This document shows positions 46,696 through 61,992 of a stretch of DNA of 64,000 bases, piece by piece. Source of the DNA: Acidobacteriaceae bacterium (GTDB lineage Bacteria > Acidobacteriota > Terriglobia > Terriglobales > Acidobacteriaceae); contig JASHPJ010000030.1 in NCBI GenBank assembly GCA_030038195.1, positions 1 to 64,000 of the forward strand, written 5' to 3'. Within the stretch, counting starts at the first letter, position 1; each line of letters opens with the position of its first letter. Below the pieces are notes generated by a model. That model had not been told where the DNA came from and ran no database searches. It was given only the letters and a program-made list of their open reading frames with translations. The translations under genes were made by a program, and so were the position numbers.

Positions 46696-46904
46696 CGGCA
46701 TTCAATAACCCCATCGCACCATCGCAGTGAGAGCCTCTTTCCTCGCAACCCTCTGCGGCTCTGGTTTTGCATCTGCTCCAAGCCGCTTTGCCTTCCGTGT
46801 TGAAGGCACTGTGCTGCCTTGCTGGCCCATATGTACCAAAAACAGAGCCAGCGAGCATAGCACACTACAGTATTGAACCCTTGGTAATTCAAATCGACTA
46901 GTAC

Positions 46905-47864: not shown

Positions 47865-48022
47865 CTAGAAGGTGTTTCAAAATCTCCTTCTGTGTCCCCG
47901 AACCGTTCCCTCAAGGGCTAAAGCCCGTAGTTCTATTGCTTTCGTTACGGCACCCTTCGACAAGCTCAGGGCAGGCTCAAAGCCGTGCCCTTTCAAAACC
48001 GGGTTTTTGAAACAGCTTCTAG
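47865..48022. repeat. Dispersed intergenic repeat family 2, copy with 18-bp TIRs
   Basis: CTAGAAGGTGTTTCAAAA (47865-47882) / TTTTGAAACAGCTTCTAG (48005-48022), one mismatch; interior CACCCTTCGACAAGCTCAGGGCAGGCTCAAAGCCGTGCCCTTTCAAAA. Confidence 0.8.
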
Positions 48023-48087
48023 GGCAAGCAGACTCCAAGAGCATCTGCGTGCGGCTCACACGGCGGATTCAGGTATTCTGTGAACAA

Positions 48088-49779
48088 ATGCAATCCCTTA
48101 CCCGCAGACAGATCATTGAAGGTTTGGCCTGCTCCGGTTTTGCAGTATCCCCCGGAGCAAATTTTTTCCATCCCTCTCAAACAGCAGGATCGGGGAGCAA
48201 AACGGTAACCTTCCTCGATATCCTGCGCGCTCCGGATTTCGTCATCGCATTCTGCGGCCTTGATCAGCCAAAGCGGCTCAGCCGCTCGGGTACGCAATGG
48301 ACCGGAACAGGGTTGCTGGTCACCATCATTCCACAGCCTGATCGTCTGCCGATCGCTGTAGCGACGACAACTGCTCGTCCTACCCATATCCAGTTGCGGT
48401 GGAGCGTCTCTGTTGAACCCGGGCTCCTCGTTTTGGGCGACGCATGGGAGCGCAGCTATGGAGATCTGCGCTGGGAATCGCTGGTTCCGGAACGCGTCCT
48501 GCCCTGGTACTTCCTCACTGCCGACCGCGAGTCCCTGCATGGATACGGTGTAAAGACCGGGGCTGGGGCTCTCTGCTTCTGGCAGATCGATCCGCAGGGC
48601 ATCTCACTCTGGCTCAATCTGAGCAACGGAGGCTCCGGTGTTGCGCTGGGTGAAAGAGAATTGCTCGCCGCCACCGTAGTTACACGGCAGGGCGACCGCG
48701 GTGCAAATGCCCTCGATGCTGCGCGTGCCTTCTGCCGCAGGATGTGTGACACTCCTCGCCCCGCAACGACGATCTACGGCAGCAACGACTGGTATTACTC
48801 CTATGGCCGAAACACGGCCGCTCAGATCATTCGAGATACGGAGTTGATGGCGTCTCTCGCGCCAACCCGCGGGCCACGGCCCTTTACCGTCATCGATGAC
48901 GGCTGGAAAAACAAGGAAGCCTATCCCGATATGGCAGCGTTGTCCGCCACAATCCGCAGCCACAATGTGCGGGCTGGCCTGTGGATTCGTCCGTTGCAAG
49001 CGGATGCCGACACGCCAGCCGACCTGCTTCTGCCCAATGCGCGATTCGGGAACAACACGAGCCACGAAACCAACCTCGCTTTCGACCCAACCGTTCCGGA
49101 AGCGCTGGAACGTGTGCTGGCCAAAGTGACCCAAGCCATCGGCTGGGGCTATGAACTGATTAAACATGATTTTTCCACTTACGACCTCCTCGGGCAGTGG
49201 GGGTTTGAAATGCATGCCCAGCCTACGCTTTCAGGCTGGAGTTTCCATGATCGCAGCAAAACCAACGCCGAGATCCTCCGCGGCTTGTACGAGGCGATTC
49301 GCCAAGCTGCCGGGAAGCGCACGCTCCTGATCGGCTGCAACACCGTCGGCCACCTCGGTGCCGGCATCTTCGATGCACAGCGGATAGGCGATGACGTGAG
49401 CGGTAAGATCTGGGAACGCACGCGGCGCATGGGGGTGAACACACTGGCTTTCAGGTTGCCCCAGCATCGAGCATTCTTTGCACTCGATGCCGACTGCGTA
49501 CCGATCACGACAGAGACGCCGTGGTCCTGCAATCGACAATGGCTCGATCTGGTGGCCAGGAGCGGGACCGTGCTCCTGGTCTCACCCCAGCCCGCAGCCA
49601 TGGGGCTGGAGCAGCGCGATGCCGTACGTGCGGCATTCGAGATTGCCACGAGCGGGACAGAGACAGCTGCGATTGATTGGCAGAGTAACACCACGCCGGG
49701 CCACTGGCAATTCCGGCCCGGGACGGAGAAAAACTACGACTGGTATCAAAACAGCGGGGCATGGCCATTCGGGATTTGA
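48088..49779 (+). CDS. Alpha-galactosidase-like glycoside hydrolase (clan GH-D type)
   Basis: TIYGSNDWYYSYGRNTAAQIIRDTELM...PFTVIDDGWKNKEAYPDMAALSATIRSHNVRAGLWIRPL...ELIKHDFSTYDLLGQWGFEM...RTLLIGCNTVGHLGAGIFDAQRIGDDVSG; ATG 48088 preferred because the upstream ORF part lies in repeat sequence. Confidence 0.75.
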   Translation: MQSLTRRQIIEGLACSGFAVSPGANFFHPSQTAGSGSKTVTFLDILRAPDFVIAFCGLDQPKRLSRSGTQWTGTGLLVTIIPQPDRLPIAVATTTARPTHIQLRWSVSVEPGLLVLGDAWERSYGDLRWESLVPERVLPWYFLTADRESLHGYGVKTGAGALCFWQIDPQGISLWLNLSNGGSGVALGERELLAATVVTRQGDRGANALDAARAFCRRMCDTPRPATTIYGSNDWYYSYGRNTAAQIIRDTELMASLAPTRGPRPFTVIDDGWKNKEAYPDMAALSATIRSHNVRAGLWIRPLQADADTPADLLLPNARFGNNTSHETNLAFDPTVPEALERVLAKVTQAIGWGYELIKHDFSTYDLLGQWGFEMHAQPTLSGWSFHDRSKTNAEILRGLYEAIRQAAGKRTLLIGCNTVGHLGAGIFDAQRIGDDVSGKIWERTRRMGVNTLAFRLPQHRAFFALDADCVPITTETPWSCNRQWLDLVARSGTVLLVSPQPAAMGLEQRDAVRAAFEIATSGTETAAIDWQSNTTPGHWQFRPGTEKNYDWYQNSGAWPFGI

Positions 49780-49990
49780 TCCGCCGTGACCGTTCTTTGT
49801 CACAACCTACCAGGGATCGCCGCATCGCCGTCGGTGCGAACTTCATAGCCACCCGGCGGTTCACGTCTGTAGGGATGAATTCAGGACAAGTCTCTGCTGG
49901 TTCAGGTTTTTCTGTCCATGAGGACTGAGCCGCGGCTACAATTGCCGCTGAACAGATCAACGAAGCGACAACGAATTTGTCGGCCTTCAT
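49780..49990 (-). pseudogene. Truncated 5' remnant of a secreted protein, translationally coupled to the upstream GH gene
   Basis: MKADKFVVASLICSAAIVAAAQSSWTEKPEPAETCPEFIPT signal peptide starting in an ATGA overlap; frame then runs antisense to the convergent alpha-galactosidase. Confidence 0.4.
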
Positions 49991-51615
49991 CACTGGGCAT
50001 TTCGCAGCGCAGTGTTCATTTGCGGTTTACCGGAGATTGAAAATTGTAGCGTAGTCAATTCTTTGGCGCGCGCGACAACGGTCCCATCGCAGAGGACTTC
50101 GAGCCCACTACCGCTGTGGTACCGGGTACCATCGCGGTCATAGAGAATCGTCAGCAAGTGCCCATGGTACGGAACACCGTCCAAGGCAAAGTAATTCCAT
50201 TTCCCAGGTGGAATCAACGGGCGCAGCGTCAACTCATTCCCAGGCGCTGGCCGCAGCCCGATGAGGCCTGTAATAATAAGGTCCGCAAATCCGGAATGAT
50301 TGTAGTATCGGCCGCGGTTTGGAGGCGGCTGGCGGAGGGAAATCAGAATGTTTCGGGCGATCCATTGGCCGGTATCCGGATCGAGATCTTCATCGATCCA
50401 TGGAATCACTTTGCCATTCGGCAACCGGATGTGTTGGGAATAAGCATAAGTTTGCAGGAGACGAAAGTAATTTTCCCTGGTCATTACGCTTTGCCTTGGG
50501 CCGTCCAGGAGATTTGCAAGTGCTACTAATGTCTGCGTTGTGGCATACGGCCACGACGGCCCGTTCCAAAGGCATTCATGCCTCACTTTATAGTCAAACC
50601 TGGGATTACGCCGCTCGGCAGTCGTTGGTCCGTATCTGCCCCAAAAGCCCTCCGGATCAAAGAGGAGTTGCCAAGCCGAATCGTGCTGCACGGACGGTAA
50701 ATTAAAATACCAGGGGATATACCCTATCAGCTCCCGATCTCCAGTCCAGCCGTCGTCATCATGGCGCGCGACTGTCTCATAGAAGCCGTCGTGCGGATTC
50801 CAGAGTCGCTTCTCGACGAGTACGCGGAGATGAGCGGCTTTCACGCGATAGGCTTGCGCCACCTCTTCTTGGCCCGCCATTTCGGCGATCCGTGAGATGG
50901 CGATGGCATCGCCGTACATATAGCTGTTGATAGTCGGCCGGTAGCCATTCCCGCTGATGCTGTCTTCCATTCCATCGCGGTCATCGATCTGCCAAAACAG
51001 CCCATTGGAGTCCTGGTGTGTCCGCTCCCAAGCTTCGTAATTCTTTCCCAAGGCCGGCAGCAGGCTTATGGTAAAAGTCCGGTTCCCTGTTGCAAGAAAC
51101 AACTGGTACACAGAATCAGCGGCCCAGAAGCTATACCGCCGAGGTTCACCATCCGGCCCAAACCAGAAGCTTGTGTAGTCGTCAACGTACTCTGGATCGC
51201 GTAGCCAACGCGCTTCTCGTATGTGATGGCCTGCCGCCGCATCGATCATGTTGCGCTTTCCTGACCAGGGCACATCATCAAGAAATTCACTGATCAAATA
51301 TCCGTCGGGAGTTGGCATGATGTGTTTTTGGAAGGCATACCAGCGGAAGTAATAAATCCGCTCCATCTCCTTGTCGGGAATATCGAGCCAAGGAATATTA
51401 GCAACGAACCAGTCCCACGGCATAGGCGGCGCGGTTCCGAGCATCTGCCGCTCGTCATTGGCGAACTCCACAAAGTAATGCTGATAGTTGGCTGGTTGAA
51501 GCACAAGATGGTTAGCGGCCCGTTGCTGTCCGGCGCAGACCCTCCAGCTTGCTAGCAGAAGCACCAGAGCTACCACGCAATTCCAGCGAACAATAGAGCG
51601 CCCCCAAGTCATCAT
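49990..51615 (-). CDS. MGH1/GH63-like (alpha/alpha-toroid) glycosidase, secreted
   Basis: LWNPHDGFYETVARHDDDGWTGDRELIGYIPWYFNLP...FGRYGPTTAERRNPRFDYKVRHECLWNGPSWPYATTQTLVALANLL; signal peptide after MMTWGRSIVRWNCVVALVLLLASWRVCAG; ATGA overlap with the upstream gene. Confidence 0.8.
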   Translation of the reverse strand: MMTWGRSIVRWNCVVALVLLLASWRVCAGQQRAANHLVLQPANYQHYFVEFANDERQMLGTAPPMPWDWFVANIPWLDIPDKEMERIYYFRWYAFQKHIMPTPDGYLISEFLDDVPWSGKRNMIDAAAGHHIREARWLRDPEYVDDYTSFWFGPDGEPRRYSFWAADSVYQLFLATGNRTFTISLLPALGKNYEAWERTHQDSNGLFWQIDDRDGMEDSISGNGYRPTINSYMYGDAIAISRIAEMAGQEEVAQAYRVKAAHLRVLVEKRLWNPHDGFYETVARHDDDGWTGDRELIGYIPWYFNLPSVQHDSAWQLLFDPEGFWGRYGPTTAERRNPRFDYKVRHECLWNGPSWPYATTQTLVALANLLDGPRQSVMTRENYFRLLQTYAYSQHIRLPNGKVIPWIDEDLDPDTGQWIARNILISLRQPPPNRGRYYNHSGFADLIITGLIGLRPAPGNELTLRPLIPPGKWNYFALDGVPYHGHLLTILYDRDGTRYHSGSGLEVLCDGTVVARAKELTTLQFSISGKPQMNTALRNAQ

Positions 51616-52592
51616 GATTCCGCCACGAATCCCAAGCTCTCCTCTGAGCGCGTCACCAGCCCAATCTGTTCCAGATGGTTGTTTCGGCCGTTGTACCAAA
51701 GCTTCCAGCCACCATTGGAGTAGACCGCGAAGGGCTTATAACACGCGTCGGCATCCCAACCACCGGGGGTGGGCCGTACGATTGGGTTTTCCGCATGACG
51801 AACCCAGCCTGTGATCCCATCCTTTGACCGCGCCAGCCCGATCTGCGCGTGATCGATGTCGCGGAAACCGATATAAAAGGCGTAATACCAACCTTTCCAG
51901 AGCAATACCTGGGCGGCAGCAACGCGGTTCTTTTCCCACTCAAATCGAGGATCGGGCGTGAGAACTGGATTGGCCGCGTACTTATCCCATCTCAGGCCGT
52001 CCTTGCTTGTCGCGTAGCCAATGGCGTTCGGTTCGTATTGCTGGCCACCGGAATACCACATCTTCCATAAGCGATCCGCCGCATCCCACATCACGTGCGG
52101 GCACATTACTGCAACATCTTCCCATGGTGCTTCGGAGACAAGAACCGGCTTCTCTGATTGGCGCACCCAGGCGATTCCGTCGGCGCTCGTCGCATAACCG
52201 ATTGCGGACCTCCCCTTCGCCTGGCCTGTATACCACATGTGATATCCATCCTTGCGGTGTACTACGATGGGGCGATTGATATCGTCTTCCCACCCGGTCT
52301 CGGTGCGAGGTCCGAGGACGATCTCCGGTGGCTTCCAATGAATTCCGTTAATACTTTCCGTAATGGCAACACTCTGCTTGGGGCGCCAGGAAACCCACAT
52401 CCTGAATTTTCCTAATTCCCGCAGTACGCAGATGTCGAAACACGTTCCATATTGCCCACCAAGAACCGGGTTCCCTTCATACTTTACCCACCCGGCATAC
52501 TTTCCTGGATTCGTTGCACTGAACGCGTAGGTCAAGTAAGACTCCGTAGTCAGGTATCCCAGAGCCAGCATCAAATCTCTTCTTGTCAACAT
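51612..52592 (-). CDS. Five-bladed beta-propeller glycosidase-like protein (GH43/GH130-like)
   Basis: WVKYEGNPVLGGQYGTCFDICVLRELGKFRMWVSWRPKQSVAITESINGIHW...YHMWYTGQAKGRSAIGYATSADGIAW...WKMWYSGGQQYEPNAIGYATSKDGLRW repeats. Confidence 0.8.
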   Translation of the reverse strand: MLTRRDLMLALGYLTTESYLTYAFSATNPGKYAGWVKYEGNPVLGGQYGTCFDICVLRELGKFRMWVSWRPKQSVAITESINGIHWKPPEIVLGPRTETGWEDDINRPIVVHRKDGYHMWYTGQAKGRSAIGYATSADGIAWVRQSEKPVLVSEAPWEDVAVMCPHVMWDAADRLWKMWYSGGQQYEPNAIGYATSKDGLRWDKYAANPVLTPDPRFEWEKNRVAAAQVLLWKGWYYAFYIGFRDIDHAQIGLARSKDGITGWVRHAENPIVRPTPGGWDADACYKPFAVYSNGGWKLWYNGRNNHLEQIGLVTRSEESLGFVAES

Positions 52593-52758
52593 TGCTTCCT
52601 CGACAGTGTCTTATTCGTTCCACCGGCCAAAACCGGAATCTAACTTGTGTAACTAACCTTCTGAGCAAATCGTACAAACGTGATGGGTGGTTCCCGTGAG
52701 CCCACCTTTTCTTGCGATGGGCCCACGGAAGTAACTCTAGCCGATTGCGCACAGCAGC

Positions 52759-55700
52759 TCAGAAAATCGCGTGGAACGACAATTGAATACTTCTTGGAGC
52801 ATTGGCGGTGCTGATAATGCCAAAGCCCTGTGTGTTCGGTCCTACTGTATTGTTGTAGCCTGGGCTGTTCAGCACAGTGTGATTCAACGCGTTAAATGCC
52901 TCGGCATGGAAATTAAGCTTTACCGACTCCCAAATTCCGAAATCCTTGTCGAGACTTGCATTGAAGTCTTCAATACCCGAAGCAGGCCCCTTCCAGACAC
53001 CAGCCGTAGCATTGCCAAGGAACATCCGCTGTCCCACCCCAGGTAATGTGGTCGGTACACCACTCACAAGCGCCTGATCCGCTCTAACGAATTTGCTCGG
53101 ATCAAGCCAGCTCACACCGATCATCGATCCGCCCGACATGACGACCTGTTTACGATTAGAAAGCAGCGCGCCGCCTCCGGTATAGTTCGCATAACATCCG
53201 GCCGAACTGAAGTTGAACTCGTTGCAGTTGTAATCTGCCACACTCCCGTAGCCGCCGGTGCTTGCCGTTCCGGTCCCACCGATCGCCCAACCATCAAAAA
53301 TTTTGTCGGCTAACGTGTGCTGGCGCAGGAATAAGGGAAGCCTGTAACGGAACGCCGCGGTCATCTGGTGCACCGTACCTGGGCTGTAGTAATCCAGTGC
53401 GCAGTCTGCCAGATATCGGCAGCCCTGTTGAGCCGAGGTACTGCTGTACGTATAAGTTCCCAGCAGTGTTAGACCATACGAGTACCTCTTGTTAACCTCC
53501 ACCTGCAGGGAGTTATACCAGGAGTTGTAATCGGAGTAAAAGGTGGTGATTCCGTTGAACCCGGCCGGATAGTATGGCTCGCGTGACAGAATGTTCGCGG
53601 CGTCATTCGTGCTCCCTCCAGGGACAAAGATGGGCCAGTTCTGGTTGTGCGTCTCGAATAAATGAGTTCCGTGGGTTGCAACCCACGCCGCGGAAAAGAC
53701 GTATGTATTGATCGGCTCGATTTCAAATTCCAGATTGAACTTGTCATACAAGCCGTTATTGAAATTCTTCGCGATTGCCTGAGTGGAAAGGGGATTCGGA
53801 AAGACCAACGTAGCGGCTGCCGAAGATCCTGCTGTTGGTGCCGAAAACGGGAATGGAACGCTGCCGTATTGTGCGTAAGGCTGAGAGAGATCAAGTCCCG
53901 GTCCTTGAGTGGGGTAATAGTCGACGCCGAAAGGCGCTGCTGTCGTATAGTTGTTGAAATTCAACAGATACTCATAATCCGTGTAGAGTCCGTAACCGCC
54001 TTTGAGTGCAGCCTTGTGATTTCCCAGAAGGTCCCACGCGAACGAAAACCGGGGTCCCACGTTGTAGGCGTTGCCGGATAAGTTCGCCGGGATTCCACGA
54101 TCTCCAACTGTAACCAGCCCGACCGGCGCTGTTGGAAACACCGTCGATGCCTGACCTGGACGGAAAGTTACAAAACGGTTCTTCTCTTCTGTGATTCCAA
54201 AGTATGGTTGGAGGCGCGCGCCGATCATGACTGTCAATCGCGACTTCAGCTTCACCGTATCCTGAATGTACGCTTCCCGCGCCGGATAGTTCACGATAAG
54301 ATTCTGCGTGCTGTTTTGAGAAAAACTGGCGCCGAATTGGCCAAGAGGCCCACCATTCAGCAGCATATCCGCAATGCCATTGCCTGTACCGCCATAGACA
54401 CTGTCGGAGTCCTGAAACGAGACGTTGCCTCCCGCGCCCCAGGTCTGATTAAAGACCTCATGGTAGTTGCGGAATTCCAGGCCGGCTTTGATGGTGTGGC
54501 GCCCCTTAGTCCAGGTGAAATTGTCCGTGATATCCCAGGTGTGTTGCGTCATCGGATTTACGTACCCGTTGTAAATGCCCATGCCCATACTGCGTGGAGT
54601 AGAGATTTGCTGAACATTCGGTGCCAGATGATCACCTACCGAGTTAATTCCCGTGTTTGATGGATTCACTATCCCTGTACAAGGCGCGCATGTGTTCGTA
54701 ACTGAAATCTCGGTCTGGGTAATGCCCAAAACGAAGTTGTTCAGCATCGAAGGCGTGATGGTGTAGGTATCATTCACGGCCCAGACCTTCGTCTGGTCGG
54801 GTTCGCCCCAGGTTGCCTGGGGATTGGGATACTGAGTTGCCCACGATGCTTCCCCGAATTCGTCGTACATATCCTGGAAAGTCGGGTTGTCGTTGTACCA
54901 CCAGAGGCTGCCGAAGACCCGGTTCTTGCTGCCGAGATTCTCGTCGATGCGCACCATCCAAGTCTGAATGAGCGTTTCGTAATTCGGATTCCATGTAAAC
55001 GTGTCGTTTCCGCTGGTTGGCTCGGGCATGATTGCTGTGCCGCCGGAAGAGTTGAGGGCTTGCCCCATGGGGCCGAAGTCCGATGCAGGAATGATCGGCA
55101 TCGGCGCGCCATTGACAATTGGAACCCCGTCTGGCGAATTGGTGAAATCGCCGCTGCGTTCGGCGTCAGTAATGGTCTGTCCGCTCGTTGTCGAATTCTT
55201 CGACGTATTGGTGCGCTCATATGAGACGAAGAAGAATGTCCGGTTCTTGCCGTTGTAGAGTTTAGGCAGCCATACTGGACCGCCTACATTGCCGCCGTAC
55301 CACTCCTGGTGAAATGGCTGGCGCGGAATGCCCTGGAAGTTGTTTGACCAGGAGTTCGCGTTCCATGCGCCATTTTGCAAATAGGTCCAGAACTGCCCGT
55401 GAAAGTCGTTGGTGCCGTTTTTCAGCGTGGCCTCAATCTGTCCGCCGGCGCCACGGGCCACCGAGGCGTCAGGAAGCGCCGAAGACACGCTAAATTCGGC
55501 GGTGTTCTCTGACTGTGGGAAGTTGGCTGCTGCAGAGCCATGCATGTAATCATTCATGGCTGCGCCGTCGATTTCGTAATTGTTGGTCAGTTGCGAAACG
55601 CCGTTGAAGCTGGTCACTGGGATGTAGTAACTGGCGCCGGTTCCAGCCGCTGTTGCACCCGGCATCAACACTTCCATTGATTCGCGTGGGTCGCGCCCTT

Positions 55701-56211
55701 CAACCGGAATTGCTTCCATGAGATCGGGTTCAATTGTGGTCAGATTGTTTGCCGTTTCTGTATCCACCATGGCGGACGACCCCGAGACTGTGATGGTCTG
55801 AGTCTCCGTCCCCACTTGCAGTGTCACAGGAAGTGTGGCGAACCCTCCCGCATGAAGGATGACCTCGTTCGCCACAAAAGTCTTAAAACCAGAGGCTGTG
55901 CAAGTGACCGTGTACGTCCCGGCGGCAATTGAAACAAATTGGTAGAACCCGGCGCCATCGCTCGTTACTTTTGCCTCAATACCGGTGTTCACGTTGTGCG
56001 CGACGATCGCTGCATTCGGTATCACCGCGCCACTCGGGTCCGTGACCGTGCCCGCGAGCGATGCCGAAATGTCAACTTGGGCCCATACCGGCCTTCCGCA
56101 GAGCGCGATGCTGACGACAGAGAAGATGACCGCCAGCATGTATGCAAAGCGGTAAAGGTGGTGCCGCTTTCCCGACTTGCTCAAATCTGTGCGTTTTTCC
56201 TGAAAATGCAT
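52759..56211 (-). CDS. Oar/TonB-dependent-receptor-type outer-membrane protein with carboxypeptidase-regulatory-like N-terminus
   Basis: Signal peptide; VDISASLAGTVTDPSGAVIPNAAIVAHNVNTGIEAKVTSDGAGFYQFVSIAAGTYTVTCTASGFKTFVANEVILHAGGFATLPVTLQVG; barrel-like C-terminus ending in aromatic F (SIQLSFHAIF). Confidence 0.92.
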   Translation of the reverse strand: MHFQEKRTDLSKSGKRHHLYRFAYMLAVIFSVVSIALCGRPVWAQVDISASLAGTVTDPSGAVIPNAAIVAHNVNTGIEAKVTSDGAGFYQFVSIAAGTYTVTCTASGFKTFVANEVILHAGGFATLPVTLQVGTETQTITVSGSSAMVDTETANNLTTIEPDLMEAIPVEGRDPRESMEVLMPGATAAGTGASYYIPVTSFNGVSQLTNNYEIDGAAMNDYMHGSAAANFPQSENTAEFSVSSALPDASVARGAGGQIEATLKNGTNDFHGQFWTYLQNGAWNANSWSNNFQGIPRQPFHQEWYGGNVGGPVWLPKLYNGKNRTFFFVSYERTNTSKNSTTSGQTITDAERSGDFTNSPDGVPIVNGAPMPIIPASDFGPMGQALNSSGGTAIMPEPTSGNDTFTWNPNYETLIQTWMVRIDENLGSKNRVFGSLWWYNDNPTFQDMYDEFGEASWATQYPNPQATWGEPDQTKVWAVNDTYTITPSMLNNFVLGITQTEISVTNTCAPCTGIVNPSNTGINSVGDHLAPNVQQISTPRSMGMGIYNGYVNPMTQHTWDITDNFTWTKGRHTIKAGLEFRNYHEVFNQTWGAGGNVSFQDSDSVYGGTGNGIADMLLNGGPLGQFGASFSQNSTQNLIVNYPAREAYIQDTVKLKSRLTVMIGARLQPYFGITEEKNRFVTFRPGQASTVFPTAPVGLVTVGDRGIPANLSGNAYNVGPRFSFAWDLLGNHKAALKGGYGLYTDYEYLLNFNNYTTAAPFGVDYYPTQGPGLDLSQPYAQYGSVPFPFSAPTAGSSAAATLVFPNPLSTQAIAKNFNNGLYDKFNLEFEIEPINTYVFSAAWVATHGTHLFETHNQNWPIFVPGGSTNDAANILSREPYYPAGFNGITTFYSDYNSWYNSLQVEVNKRYSYGLTLLGTYTYSSTSAQQGCRYLADCALDYYSPGTVHQMTAAFRYRLPLFLRQHTLADKIFDGWAIGGTGTASTGGYGSVADYNCNEFNFSSAGCYANYTGGGALLSNRKQVVMSGGSMIGVSWLDPSKFVRADQALVSGVPTTLPGVGQRMFLGNATAGVWKGPASGIEDFNASLDKDFGIWESVKLNFHAEAFNALNHTVLNSPGYNNTVGPNTQGFGIISTANAPRSIQLSFHAIF

Positions 56212-56357
56212 TTTTGCCCCCTCTTGAACTCTGGACTGTTACACATCTCGATGCCGCCGCGTTGCGCTTCTGGCGCTTTTACACTCCACGGTCTCTCGCA
56301 GGCCCGGCCGACTACCGCAACCCCTTCACGGCACTGAAACGAATGCCACTGAAACCG

Positions 56358-56367
56358 TGAAAACGTT
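56358..56367. promoter_or_regulatory. TGAAAACGTT motif with flanking repeats upstream of the TonB-type receptor
   Basis: CACTGAAACGAATGCCACTGAAACCGTGAAAACGTT; core shared with 45687-45696. Confidence 0.3.
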
Positions 56368-56492
56368 AGACTTTCATCTATTCACTTGTCATGATGGCAA
56401 TGGACCAATTTGCAATGATGCATTTGCACTATGCCAGGAGAGTCGGGGATGGTGCAGGCCGCCAGACGGGTGCGAACGGCGAATGTCTGCAG

Positions 56493-57959
56493 CTATTGGG
56501 CGCTTGACCTGGGGTGATGAACGAGGTCCTGAAGGCGTTCCCAATAAACCGATATGCCTGTCCTGAGTGCCGTGATGAGCCGTCGTCCCGGATTCCCGTG
56601 CAGATAGACCAGCGCATGAATGCGCGTGCCTCGACCGGTCTCGCTTACGACGCTGAATTCTCCGCGCAGGGCTCGGATTTTCTCACTCATACCAGCCAGA
56701 CCGTAGCCTTTGACCTGTGTGGTTTTGGGATCAAATCCGCTACCATCGTCGGTTACTGTCAGGCAAACACTGGAAGGTCTATATTCCAGTTCAACATCGA
56801 GGGCAGAAGGATTGCCATGGCGTAACGCATTGGCAATAGCTTCCTGTGCTATACGGTACAAGGCATCGGTGGTGGAGAGGGAAAGACTGCTGGCCGGCCC
56901 ACTGGTTACGAAATGTACTTGAAGCTTCGATCCAGCCGTACTCCTTTCCAGCGCGTCACGAATCGCCGAAGGCAGATCTGCGCCTTCAACCAATTGCTGA
57001 GGACGCAGCATCATGATGCTGCGGTGCGCCTCAGAGTGGCTGTGGCGCACCATGTCCAGGGCCATATCAAGATGGCGTGCCAGCAGAGTGTTCGTATTGG
57101 GGACGACTTTGCGCGCCGCCTGAATCTGAAATGAGAGACCGGCAAAGCTCTGCGCCAGCGTGTCGTGCAATTCGCCTCCCAGTCTCGCCCGCTCGGCCAT
57201 GATTGCCTTATACTTGGACTTCAACATCTGGATCAGGATCAGGTGTCCTGCGATTACCAGGAGCGCAAGTAGAAATCCGATTTCCAGAAGATGCTTTGGA
57301 CTCCACCAGGGCGGGCCAGAAATTACTGTCACATCCTGTGCGGATCGCAGCAAGATGGCGAACCCGCCGCGGTAGAGCGTATCCCGCGGCTGGAGAGAAC
57401 ACACACCGCGAAGGCGGAGAATCGATCCGCTTTGAATTTCGGGAAGAGAGGAGCCGCCGGGTCCTGAATTAAGTTTGGCCAGGAAGACCTGCTGGCCGCT
57501 TTTCAGCTTCAGCCAGGTTTCCCGACCACTGCTCTCTCTGTCCACGAACCGCCCGGTTACCTCGATCAGGAGACCGGCGAATTTACCTAGCGCCGCCTCG
57601 TCCGGAGTCACCGAAAGGGGCGGTATCGGCGAGCCGTGCCAAAGAAGATCAACTTTGCTATCACGAAGGACCAGCCCATCTTCCGTATCGTCGGCGTGTC
57701 CCGTAACGAGCAGTTGGTCTCCGATTCTCAGACCCTGCGTGGAGAGTCCATCGACTTCCGCTCCACCCGTTGAATCCTGAATGTACGATGGATTTCCGTT
57801 TAGCGTAAGAGTCGCTTGTACCATAACTAGGGAGGCGGGCAATTGCGGTTGCGAATGGATGGCAGCAATCGATGCGTAGGTCGCGGGGGCCTGCGCGCTT
57901 GCGGCGGCTGTAGCGAGCCCCATAAGAATCACAGCGCCATATCGTATCGCTGGCTTCAT
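56493..57959 (-). CDS. NarL/LiaS-type (HisKA_3) histidine kinase with periplasmic OB-like domains
   Basis: Signal peptide; periplasmic VMVQATLTLNGNPSYIQDSTGGAEVDG...GDQLLVTGHADD...LLIEVTGRFVDRE...; TM LLEIGFLLALLVIAGHLILIQML; ERARLGGELHDTLAQSFAGLSFQIQAA H-box; AIANALRHGN, DDGSGF, GYGLAGMSEKIRALRGEFSV. Confidence 0.92.
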   Translation of the reverse strand: MKPAIRYGAVILMGLATAAASAQAPATYASIAAIHSQPQLPASLVMVQATLTLNGNPSYIQDSTGGAEVDGLSTQGLRIGDQLLVTGHADDTEDGLVLRDSKVDLLWHGSPIPPLSVTPDEAALGKFAGLLIEVTGRFVDRESSGRETWLKLKSGQQVFLAKLNSGPGGSSLPEIQSGSILRLRGVCSLQPRDTLYRGGFAILLRSAQDVTVISGPPWWSPKHLLEIGFLLALLVIAGHLILIQMLKSKYKAIMAERARLGGELHDTLAQSFAGLSFQIQAARKVVPNTNTLLARHLDMALDMVRHSHSEAHRSIMMLRPQQLVEGADLPSAIRDALERSTAGSKLQVHFVTSGPASSLSLSTTDALYRIAQEAIANALRHGNPSALDVELEYRPSSVCLTVTDDGSGFDPKTTQVKGYGLAGMSEKIRALRGEFSVVSETGRGTRIHALVYLHGNPGRRLITALRTGISVYWERLQDLVHHPRSSAQ

Positions 57960-57991
57960 GTCGCTTCCCGGCAAACTCCTCATCCCCCGGC

Positions 57992-58639
57992 TCACTTCAA
58001 CATGGTCACCCGGACATTCTTCCATTGCCCGCCCGAATCGTAAGACCGCAGCCCGATCTTCCCCTTTACAGGGCATTGCGGCACAAAGAGGTTGAGGCTT
58101 ACTTTCTCACTCTGTCCCTGTTGTTGAGCGAGAAGGCCGATGTGGCAGCCTCTCAACTCCATCCGAATGTGATACCAACAGTTGGGCAGGATAGGATTGG
58201 GCATAGGTTTTGCCGCCATCTCGCTCCATCCATGATCCGCTACTCCCAACACCAAAGCCCCATCGCGCACTCGGAGTCCGCCGTATATCCCGCTGTACGC
58301 ATCGACTCCAGGCTCCGCGTCCGACACTCTGGCAATCACTCCGGCATCACCGGTGCTGTTAAGCGAGATATCCGCATCAAGCGCGTAATCGGTCCAGTAT
58401 GGCGAACCTGTGATCAATTTCGCCCCGCGCTCATTGGATTCATTGACCATTACCCCGTCACGAACGTTCCAGTTCCCATCGTAGGCCACCCATTGCGAAT
58501 CGTCGCCAACTGCAAAGCTGTCGTGAAACGGCAGTCCACGCAAGGGCGAGCGCAGAACGTAAAGTACGCCCGCTGTTGCCGAAGACCCTACCAAGGCCGC
58601 AGCAAGGAAGAGAACCAGGTCTCGAATGATCGGCCGCAT
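57992..58639 (-). CDS. Membrane-tethered LamG/jelly-roll-like domain protein
   Basis: N-terminal TM DLVLFLAAALVGSSATAGVLYVL; FHDSFAVGDDSQWVAYDGNWNVRDGVMVNESNERGAKLITGSPYWTDYALDADISLNSTGDAGVIARVSD...GKIGLRSYDSGGQWKNVRV. Confidence 0.8.
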   Translation of the reverse strand: MRPIIRDLVLFLAAALVGSSATAGVLYVLRSPLRGLPFHDSFAVGDDSQWVAYDGNWNVRDGVMVNESNERGAKLITGSPYWTDYALDADISLNSTGDAGVIARVSDAEPGVDAYSGIYGGLRVRDGALVLGVADHGWSEMAAKPMPNPILPNCWYHIRMELRGCHIGLLAQQQGQSEKVSLNLFVPQCPVKGKIGLRSYDSGGQWKNVRVTMLK

Positions 58640-58711
58640 AAGCGCTCAATCCTCCATTCCAATCCAGACCATCAGTTGGCACCACGGCACGAAGCAGTCG
58701 GCTTGAAAATC

Positions 58712-59671
58712 TTAACGGCCGAACGCCCACACCACATTCTCGCGCGTAAGAAGCACGGCCTCCACGTGCTCCGGTGGCGGAAGAGGATGTTTTCGAATTC
58801 CGGCCAGCGCCGCTTCTACGGCGAGGTATCCAACCTGGTATCCATCCGTGGCCACTAGCGAATCCAGCTTGCCTTGCTGGAGGTTAAGAGCGAGAAAGAG
58901 ATCGCGGTCGGAACCTACCAGAGCGACTGAGTGCGGCGCATTCGAGGCCTCTAGTGCTAGCATCGCGCCCTGTGTGGCATCTGCAGTGAGCGCAAAGATA
59001 GCCTTCAAACCCGGAAACGTGTTCACGAGCTCCCGTGTGCTCTGCTCCGCTTCAGGTATCTGCACAGAGCCCGGAGATTGGGCGACAATTTCGATCCCCG
59101 GATAGGCGGCGATGGCCCGCATGAAGCTCCGTGCACGTAGCAAGCTTTCCGGCGTACCGCGGCCCAAGCCCACTATCGCTACTTCTCCCTTACCTCCCGT
59201 CAGTTGGGCGATTCTTTCGGCGGCAAGTCTGCCGAACTGCGCCTGATCAGGCGTGACCGAAGTCAGATAAGGACCGGTCGGCATTGGAGCCTCGGTCTGA
59301 ACCACGACAATGGGAATCTTGCGATTGGTCAGGTCGTCGATCATCGTGACTATACCCCACGGATTTGAAGGCCCCAGAATGAGCGCCTTTGCCCCTCTGT
59401 GTACTGCTGCCTCGGCGATCTCGATCTGACGGTCCAGATCGTCTTCCCTGGTCGGAGCGTTCCAGTAGATTCGATATCCCACGCTCCGCGCCGCAGCTTG
59501 AGCGCCGCGACGCATGTCTTCTGTGAAATTGGTGCCGCTGGTGCGCGGAATGAATGCAATCACCGGCGGGGATGCGGGTTGTCTCCAGGAAAGGAACAGC
59601 ATGGCCAGGCATCCGAAAGCAGCGCCCAATAAAGCGGCGCAGAGCGGCCGCACAATTTGTTGGATCCTCAT
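58712..59671 (-). CDS. Membrane-tethered periplasmic sugar-binding protein (RbsB/type I PBP)
   Basis: N-terminal TM; VIAFIPRTSGTNFTEDMRRGAQAAARSVGYRIYWNAPTREDDLDRQIEIAEAAVHRGAKALILGPSN...PIVVVQTEAP...LKAIFALTADATQGAMLALEA. Confidence 0.88.
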   Translation of the reverse strand: MRIQQIVRPLCAALLGAAFGCLAMLFLSWRQPASPPVIAFIPRTSGTNFTEDMRRGAQAAARSVGYRIYWNAPTREDDLDRQIEIAEAAVHRGAKALILGPSNPWGIVTMIDDLTNRKIPIVVVQTEAPMPTGPYLTSVTPDQAQFGRLAAERIAQLTGGKGEVAIVGLGRGTPESLLRARSFMRAIAAYPGIEIVAQSPGSVQIPEAEQSTRELVNTFPGLKAIFALTADATQGAMLALEASNAPHSVALVGSDRDLFLALNLQQGKLDSLVATDGYQVGYLAVEAALAGIRKHPLPPPEHVEAVLLTRENVVWAFGR

Positions 59672-59719
59672 TATTATGCGAAATGCTCCATCTGATCTCT
59701 AGTCCTGTTACCGGTCGCC

Positions 59720-60355
59720 TCATTCATTTAGTTTGACCAATCCGCGGCGGATGCCAATCGCTACCGCCTCGGTACGATCCTTCGCGCCCAATTTCGAAAG
59801 CAGGCTGATAACATGATTCCTGGCGGTGATATCGCTGATGAAGAGCCTCTTGGCAATCTCTTTGTTGGTAAGACCCTGCACTAGTAATTCGAGAACCTCC
59901 ACCTCGCGCGTGCTCAGCGAGGAGCGTCCAATCCGTTCAGCCAGTCGCATTGCCACGGCATTGGGAATTCTGCGAATTCCCTGGCTCACAGCGTGAATCG
60001 CCTCGATGACCTCATCCTGAGAAGCAGTCTTGAGCAAATATCCAAGAGCACCCGCCTCGATGGCATTGAAAATGTCTTCATCGAGCTGATAGTTCGTCAA
60101 TACGAGTATTTTGCTTGCTGGCTGTGAAGCGCGTAGCGCGGAAATTACTTCTACGCCGCCAATATCCGGCATCCTTAAATCCAGAAGCACCACGTCGGGA
60201 TTCAACTTTTCCGTCAGGAGAATCCCCTCTTTCCCGCAGGAGGCCATCCCAACAATGGTGATTCCTGATTCACTGTCAAGCATGCTGTGCAAGCCCCGGC
60301 GCACCACTGGATGATCATCAACAACAAGCACTCGAATGCATTCCGGCTCTGCCAT
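59720..60355 (-). CDS. NarL/FixJ-family response regulator (LuxR HTH)
   Basis: IRVLVVDDHPVVRRGLHSMLDSESGITIVG...PDVVLLDLRMPDIGGVEVI...LSTREVEVLELLVQGLTNKEIAKRLFISDITARNHVISLLSKLGAKDRTEAV. Confidence 0.96.
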   Translation of the reverse strand: MAEPECIRVLVVDDHPVVRRGLHSMLDSESGITIVGMASCGKEGILLTEKLNPDVVLLDLRMPDIGGVEVISALRASQPASKILVLTNYQLDEDIFNAIEAGALGYLLKTASQDEVIEAIHAVSQGIRRIPNAVAMRLAERIGRSSLSTREVEVLELLVQGLTNKEIAKRLFISDITARNHVISLLSKLGAKDRTEAVAIGIRRGLVKLNE

Positions 60356-60624: not shown

Positions 60625-60656
60625 TGGTGCGAATGCACCATTCAGCGATGGTGCAT
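60625..60656. promoter_or_regulatory. Three-armed inverted repeat (mutually exclusive hairpins or multi-half-site operator)
   Basis: TGGTGC-GAAT-GCACCA and ATGCACCAT-TCAGCG-ATGGTGCAT share the middle arm. Confidence 0.45.
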
Positions 60657-60753
60657 CAGAACCAAAAGCTTCGCTGATACCAAGCCTTTCATATTCGAGG
60701 TTTGAGTTATTTTTCGAATCTGCTATTCTCGCGGATGCATTCTGGAGTCTGCT

Positions 60754-61992
60754 ATGTGTGCGTGGGCAGGTCCTGCTGATTCAGGCGGATCGACGAAGAC
60801 CGTGACGGCAAGGCGTGCTGGCTTGTTTCTCGCTGTCATTCTCGCTGGAACAGCATTCGGGGCGCAGCCTGCTTATGCACAGTCACCTTCCGCTGGTCCC
60901 CCTGATATCACCCAGCTATCACATCAGGCGGAAACCGATCTTCACGAGCAGAGGCCGGCACAGGCAGTCGAAAAGTATCAAAAGATCCTCGCAGCCGAAC
61001 CGGATAACATCGGTGCTCTCTCCAATTTGGGACTCGCGTACTACATGCAGAAGAATTTTCCGTCGGCGGCAAAGGAGTTCGACCTAGCTCTTCGCCACAA
61101 CCCAAATCTCTGGAACATTGTTGCCCTTTGCGGTCTGTCCGAGGCTCAATCTGGACAGGATAAGAGTGCGCGCGCACATCTTGAGGCTGCATTTCAGCAT
61201 GTAGCAGAACCGTCGCTGCGCTTGGCAGTGGGTAAGCAACTGTTCAGCAGTGAATTCGAGACGGGCGATTTGAACCAAGCAGCCGAAATCGTTGTGCAAT
61301 TGCAGCAACTCGATCCGAAGAATATTGATATTATGTACGCCGCGCATCAGGTGTACTCTCTGTTGGCGGATAGAGCCTTCCTTTCTGTCGCACGCCTGCA
61401 GCCGGATTCTGCGCGAATGTTCCAACTGTGGGGCGACCGCATGACGGAATTGGGAGATACGGAGGGAGCCATTGTGGCCTATCGCATGGCCATTCAGCGC
61501 GATCCCAATCTCTCCAGCGTTCACGTTGCGCTTGCCGATGCACTCAACAACTCTCGCTCCGCGACCGAGAGAGCGCAGGCCGAAAGCGAATACCAAAAGG
61601 CGCTGGCCATCGATCCCCAGGACGAGAGAGCCGAATGCAAGCTCGGAGATATTGAGTTTCAGCGCTCCAATCACGAAGGCGCCACGCATCACTATAGGCG
61701 CGCCCTTCAGCTTCGGCCGGACGACCCTGACGCCAACGAAGGCTTGGGTATGGTTCTTTTCTCTTCGCGTTCGTACGCAGAGGCCAGGGTGTATCTGGCT
61801 CGCGCAGTACAACTGGACCCGACCAATGCAACGGACTATTACCACTTGAGCCAGGCAAGCAGAGAAACAGGAGATTTGGATGAGGCAAAGCGTGAAATGA
61901 GTGAATTCCTGAAGTTGAAAGCTGAAAGTGAGAATCTCAAGCGCAGCTTCGGCGAGTTGCCGCTTGAACGCGCTCGACAGAACACTCCATAG
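60754..61992 (+). CDS. Secreted TPR-repeat protein
   Basis: Signal peptide ARRAGLFLAVILAGTAFGAQPAYAQ; TPR units QAVEKYQKILAAEPDNIGALSNLGLAYYMQKNFPSAAKEFDLALRHNP, ATHHYRRALQLRPDDPDANEGLGMVLFSSRSYAEARVYLARAVQLDP. Confidence 0.85.
   Translation: MCAWAGPADSGGSTKTVTARRAGLFLAVILAGTAFGAQPAYAQSPSAGPPDITQLSHQAETDLHEQRPAQAVEKYQKILAAEPDNIGALSNLGLAYYMQKNFPSAAKEFDLALRHNPNLWNIVALCGLSEAQSGQDKSARAHLEAAFQHVAEPSLRLAVGKQLFSSEFETGDLNQAAEIVVQLQQLDPKNIDIMYAAHQVYSLLADRAFLSVARLQPDSARMFQLWGDRMTELGDTEGAIVAYRMAIQRDPNLSSVHVALADALNNSRSATERAQAESEYQKALAIDPQDERAECKLGDIEFQRSNHEGATHHYRRALQLRPDDPDANEGLGMVLFSSRSYAEARVYLARAVQLDPTNATDYYHLSQASRETGDLDEAKREMSEFLKLKAESENLKRSFGELPLERARQNTP

Follow-up and report, generated by a model that had tools for sequence, protein, structure and literature searches.

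A probable glycan sense-uptake-degrade locus of Acidobacteriaceae with a sugar-binding-protein-dependent, NarL-type two-component system

Acidobacteria are major degraders of glycans in soil. Among two-component systems that respond to sugars through a sugar-binding protein (SBP), XylFII-LytS is one example. Another precedent for SBP-kinase-response regulator sugar sensing is CuaDSR of Ruminiclostridium cellulolyticum (PMC10384115). The locus described here lies in a window of 64,000 nucleotides, comprising positions 1 to 64,000 of contig JASHPJ010000030.1 of an Acidobacteriaceae bacterium. It resembles CuaDSR in its dedicated SBP gene beside genes for a kinase and a response regulator (RR), in transporter-free sensing and in the putative control of sugar-use genes. 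It differs in the input of the acidobacterial kinase, which consists of a CBM66-like lectin domain and tandem OB domains, in the NarL-type character of the kinase and RR, and in the neighbouring target, an outer-membrane receptor locus. The criterion for a three-component sugar-sensing gene set, an SBP gene conserved beside a sensor kinase and an RR, was met.

As in the hybrid two-component system (HTCS) PULs of the Bacteroidota, an outer-membrane receptor and glycosidases are encoded beside the sensor; unlike in those systems, the inputs are of SBP and lectin type, and kinase and RR are each a protein of their own. The HTCS criterion, sensor, kinase, receiver and DNA-binding domains in one protein, was not met, since the kinase and RR have separate genes. 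No match to SusD was found among ten proteins of the window or the commonest neighbour families, and the receptor was assigned to OMP_b-brl_4. The original prediction that the locus departs from the canonical Bacteroidota PUL was upheld, there being neither a SusC/SusD pair nor a one-protein HTCS. With the NarX/NarL nitrate system of Escherichia coli the locus shares a HisKA_3 kinase, a GerE regulator and 7-2-7 inverted-repeat sites, whereas the input domains, the half-site (TAGTNCA) and the target genes are all different. Judged by its predicted domains, the system belongs to the NarL two-component family and is not a SusCD/HTCS PUL. By analogy, it is best read as working like an SBP-dependent sugar two-component system of the CuaDSR kind that would drive a PUL-like locus.

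All seven genes of the proposed co-directional set were recovered as open reading frames, all on the minus strand, and Pfam searches confirmed the identities given to the RR, SBP, kinase and receptor. The leading gene (59720..60355) encodes a NarL/FixJ-type RR (Response_reg, 1e-27; GerE, 1.4e-18), in which the phospho-acceptor D59 is invariant among relatives. It is followed by genes for a sugar SBP with an N-terminal membrane anchor (58712..59671; Peripla_BP_4, 1.7e-43; PDB relatives of ribose-binding type), for a free-standing, membrane-anchored, CBM66-like lectin-fold protein, referred to below as LamG (57992..58639), and for a NarL-type histidine kinase with a signal-peptide-like start and one transmembrane helix (56493..57959; HisKA_3 and HATPase_c). 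The Oar/TonB-type outer-membrane receptor (52759..56211; CarboxypepD_reg and OMP_b-brl_4, 1.3e-135), for which Pfam reported no plug domain, precedes a propeller-type glycosidase or phosphorylase with a Tat-like signal (51612..52592) and a GH142-type beta-L-arabinofuranosidase homologue (49990..51615). The ATGA overlaps that had been predicted between the last three genes were only partly present. The ATG of the GH142 gene, at 51615, overlaps the propeller stop codon at 51614-51612, whereas 166 bp separate the receptor and propeller genes. The gene order is atypical, with the RR first, LamG separate and an SBP in which a membrane anchor replaces the lipid Cys. A promoter and terminator scan gave counts no higher than those in shuffled sequence.

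Membrane tethering of the SBP is predicted in two forms: a lipoprotein Cys is present in 95% of relatives, and in the window protein, which has Arg30 at that position, an uncleaved N-terminal anchor is predicted. The LamG sequence scored 3e-8 against PF06439, the 3-keto-disaccharide hydrolase family, and gave no useful match when searched against the PDB, so that profile and fold searches were required. These were carried out with the family profile and a fused homologue, L026, and not with the window protein itself. The first domain of the L026 outer region (modelled at pLDDT 79) matched CBM66 structure 4b1m with a TM score of 0.79-0.81 by target length, and the family profile reached CBM66 4b1l at E 0.0012. 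Judged by that homologue, the protein earlier labelled "LamG-like" is a concanavalin-type sandwich with CBM66 as its nearest fold. On the evidence of this modelled fold and sequence relationship, the domain meets the description of a CBM66-like beta-sandwich; there are no data on fructan binding.

The OB-like domains predicted for the kinase were also supported. An AlphaFold2 model of the outer region (57294..57902; pLDDT 91.3, pTM 0.87) matched tandem OB proteins in the PDB, with low TM scores across both domains jointly and better superpositions of single domains. The H-, N- and G-boxes of the window kinase are intact, and NarL/FixJ membership was met by this HisKA_3 kinase and by a GerE regulator with a phospho-acceptor Asp. 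Homologous OB regions also occur elsewhere in the phylum within other signalling proteins, several of which have GGDEF motifs; one is joined to a GGDEF protein on contig C14 of genome G000 (L010:577-2937).

When the genome of the window was searched with the kinase, SBP and LamG proteins, each picked out a single additional strong locus, on contig C114. This paralogue has the same order of SBP, LamG and kinase and encodes LamG and kinase in one frame, which argues that the two form one sensor; an RR gene and a GH127 gene follow the kinase, and a receptor gene lies on the opposite side. The LamG protein was found in 13 of 396 genomes of a phylum-wide sample, all of them from the family of the window, and in 36 of 81 genomes of its genus. 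A scan of GTDB genomes gave 80 loci, nearly all from Acidobacteriaceae or unclassified acidobacterial MAGs; two records, carrying the labels Rhodanobacteraceae and Binataceae, probably stem from misbinned contigs.

Grouping at 90% identity left 94 non-redundant loci, almost all of them from Acidobacteriaceae. An SBP was encoded in 88 of the loci, a kinase in 90 and an RR in 81, and all three lay beside LamG in 77, which is strong support for the predicted conservation of the four adjacent sensor genes in other Acidobacteriota. With a paralogue in the same genome and about 94 syntenic loci, the recurrence of the locus exceeds chance. The commonest order in relatives is SBP, LamG-OB-kinase and finally RR, and 81 of the 94 loci encode LamG and kinase as one fusion protein; the window carries a rarer, split version in which the RR leads. 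The proposal that LamG and the SBP are accessories of the kinase gained support, for LamG from this fusion and for the SBP from its near-constant adjacency and its tethering. The analysis itself established the gene content, fold assignments, synteny and fusion in relatives; direct binding and contact between SBP and kinase are inferred. Three relatives (L035, L039 and L112) are LamG-kinase fusions without an SBP and without OB domains, and a neighbour of L035 is a 789-aa protein with two LamG-like domains.

The identities of the two enzymes required some revision. The propeller had been called GH43/GH130-like; a weak Pfam match to GH130 (5e-9) and a PDB match to beta-1,2-mannobiose phosphorylase (4e-9) were obtained, and the protein is only distantly GH130/GH32-like. 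The last gene, previously described as MGH1/GH63-like, was reassigned to GH142. Its Pfam domains are MGH1-like_GH and GH65C, and it matched the C-terminal half of 5mqr at E 8.8e-123. That structure is BT_1020 of Bacteroides thetaiotaomicron, a GH142 beta-L-arabinofuranosidase (PMC7263609). The window enzyme aligns with BT_1020 over about 490 residues and retains the putative catalytic residue, Glu694 (in GYGMTEFLV) aligning with the Glu of GYLISEFLD; unlike BT_1020, it has no N-terminal half. The description of a GH142 enzyme is met by this relationship and the aligned Glu, enzyme activity being inferred; that beta-L-arabinofuranosides are the ligand of the window copy is a guess. A glycosidase-like gene on the plus strand (47872-49779), with no Pfam match and a weak PDB match to alpha-galactosidase 6lcj (E 2.7e-5), converges on the GH142 gene and may belong to the locus.

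A receptor gene was the immediate neighbour in 55 of the 75 complete evaluable modules (73%), compared to about 2.5% expected, the latter calculated from roughly 46 receptor genes (our count, from 66 matches) among about 3600 genes (our estimate), and it lay within five genes in 71. GH127 genes were found near 33 of the 75 complete modules. Of the roughly 44 GH127 genes in 12 genomes, 11 were located within 10 kb of a module when 0.4 were expected, an enrichment of approximately 30-fold; the genome of the window has three, one of which adjoins the C114 paralogue. These associations with receptor and GH127 genes are direct observations. The activity of the GH127 proteins beside modules is uncertain, since many are distant members by Pfam score. 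Other recurrent neighbours were genes for TPR proteins, FG-GAP/ASPIC proteins, GH51-like, GH43, GH3 and GH32 enzymes, and sulfatases. A single fixed substrate for all modules was rejected, because the neighbouring enzymes differ.

In other modules, too, a secreted TPR protein is repeatedly encoded close to the receptor (34 of 87 loci). In the window, a secreted TPR protein is encoded on the plus strand (60754-61992), divergently from the RR gene, and the upstream region common to both has two palindromes; this protein and the TPR proteins close to other modules match only distantly, at 22-29% identity. Such a protein could be a SusD-like partner, an idea with no supporting test.

The variety of these neighbouring enzymes, together with an unidentified ligand and the abundance of receptor genes, leaves room for the view that the module senses a non-glycan signal, such as envelope stress or a signal molecule, and that its neighbourhood reflects the genome-wide richness in receptors and glycosidases. 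Genome-wide richness is at odds with the excess of adjacent receptors and the GH127 enrichment, and a non-glycan signal with the sugar-binding folds of both the SBP and the lectin-type part; this reading was considered unlikely. Less likely still is that the SBP and LamG serve uptake or periplasmic catabolism, with regulation left to the kinase and RR alone. Peripla_BP_4 proteins often work with ABC transporters, and PF06439 includes enzymes, but neither the window locus nor the annotated recurrent neighbour families contained a recognisable ABC permease gene, the nearest fold to LamG is a binding module and not an enzyme, and in most loci LamG and kinase form one protein.

There remained the question of whether a frameshift or an assembly error has split a gene that normally encodes LamG and kinase together. 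The fused form is found in nearly all relatives, and a split locus, L110, which is sister to the fused L041, resembles such an artefact. A congeneric genome, G430, holds the only recognisable orthologue of the window module within the genus, and there (L174, contig C8) the SBP-LamG-kinase stretch is a degraded remnant, with the OB region gone and LamG broken across two frames. Against an artefact, the window kinase opens with a signal-peptide-like stretch, the window LamG stops at the natural end of the domain, and separate LamG genes are also found in other split modules, co-directional in L175 and encoded on the other strand in L116-L121 and L176-L180. A frameshift was rejected as the main reading on account of the signal-peptide-like start and the other split forms, and an artefact of either kind was judged very improbable. 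In a quick tree of the kinase region, the window fell inside the module clade, nearest to L063 and the L116-L121 class, with a placement that is unsure because of its long branch. Since its kinase is divergent and the G430 orthologue is degraded, the window copy may be a lineage oddity.

A candidate operator was found in the intergenic regions between modules and receptors. These regions had palindromic words in common, far beyond the level in shuffled sequences, which condensed to TAGTNCA-NN-TGNACTA (7-2-7). With up to two mismatches, the palindrome was present in 42 of 59 non-redundant module-receptor regions, compared to about 3% of random stretches of the same length. Across 1.66 Mb of loci there were 52 sites with no more than one mismatch, 47 of them upstream of receptor, SBP, RR or GH127 genes. 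In a control, twelve permuted palindromes gave 0-3 sites and the true palindrome 31. The sole exact palindrome in the genome of the window was in the SBP-receptor gap of the C114 paralogue, and among fused modules outside the discovery set a module-receptor palindrome was detected in three of five. No palindrome of the common type was found in the modules whose separate LamG gene faces the other way (L116-L121 and L176-L180), a class that may use another operator.

The window has four sites at one mismatch from the relaxed consensus, TRGTNCANNTGNACYA, compared to 0.22 expected. One (TGATGCA-TT-TGCACTA, 56416..56431) precedes the receptor gene by about 205 bp. A second (TGGTGCG-AA-TGCACCA, 60625..60640) is upstream of the RR gene and the divergent TPR gene, and a 7-2-7-like site (TGGTGCA-TC-AGAACCA, 60649..60664) lies 24 bp from it. 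The fourth, TGGCCCATATGTACCA at 46823-46838, is unexplained and has no obvious locus gene behind it. The comparison with expectation is somewhat favourable, since the R/Y relaxation was picked with the relatives in view and the receptor region of the window was part of the discovery set. Most relatives have stronger sites than the three of this locus, and with the strict palindrome at three mismatches the window gave 13 sites compared to 6.8 expected, which is barely above chance. The 7-2-7 layout has been described for NarL sites (PMC7419079) and so fits a NarL-type RR. The palindrome and its positions are observed, and its occurrence in the upstream regions of the receptor and glycosidase genes supports the predicted control of these genes by the sensor, binding by the RR being inferred.

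Taken as a whole, the locus probably serves to sense, take up and degrade a glycan under the control of an SBP-dependent two-component system. In the proposed mechanism, the kinase would receive a periplasmic glycan fragment at its tandem-OB outer region, presented there by the tethered SBP and the CBM66-like domain, and would then phosphorylate the RR, phosphotransfer between these NarL-type partners being inferred. The RR would bind the 7-2-7 palindromes that precede its own operon and the receptor operon, and the outcome would be raised levels of the TonB-type receptor, the propeller glycosidase and the GH142 beta-L-arabinofuranosidase. SBP-kinase contact, the direction of regulation, RR-palindrome binding and the ligand are all inferred, in the absence of binding or expression data.

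No prior description of the module, with its lectin-type and tandem-OB input and its link to an acidobacterial receptor, was found in the open-access papers searched, which are only a part of the literature, and no paper on the regulation of the many acidobacterial TonB-type receptors was found among them. The combination of an SBP and a lectin-like domain on one kinase, beside a glycan receptor and glycosidases, forms a recurring set that is apparently undescribed. It is somewhat more likely than not that the Acidobacteriaceae have an undescribed, family-specific class of glycan sensor in which an SBP and a CBM66-like domain together feed a tandem-OB, NarL-type kinase and a readable 7-2-7 operator ties every copy of the sensor to a receptor and enzymes of its own, as a counterpart of the HTCS-driven PULs. 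If this is true, two sugar-recognising inputs on one kinase raise the question of whether monomer and oligomer are sensed together, and the family would possess a recurring sensor architecture, a means of matching sensors with their receptors and enzymes, and an operator sequence for the prediction of regulons.
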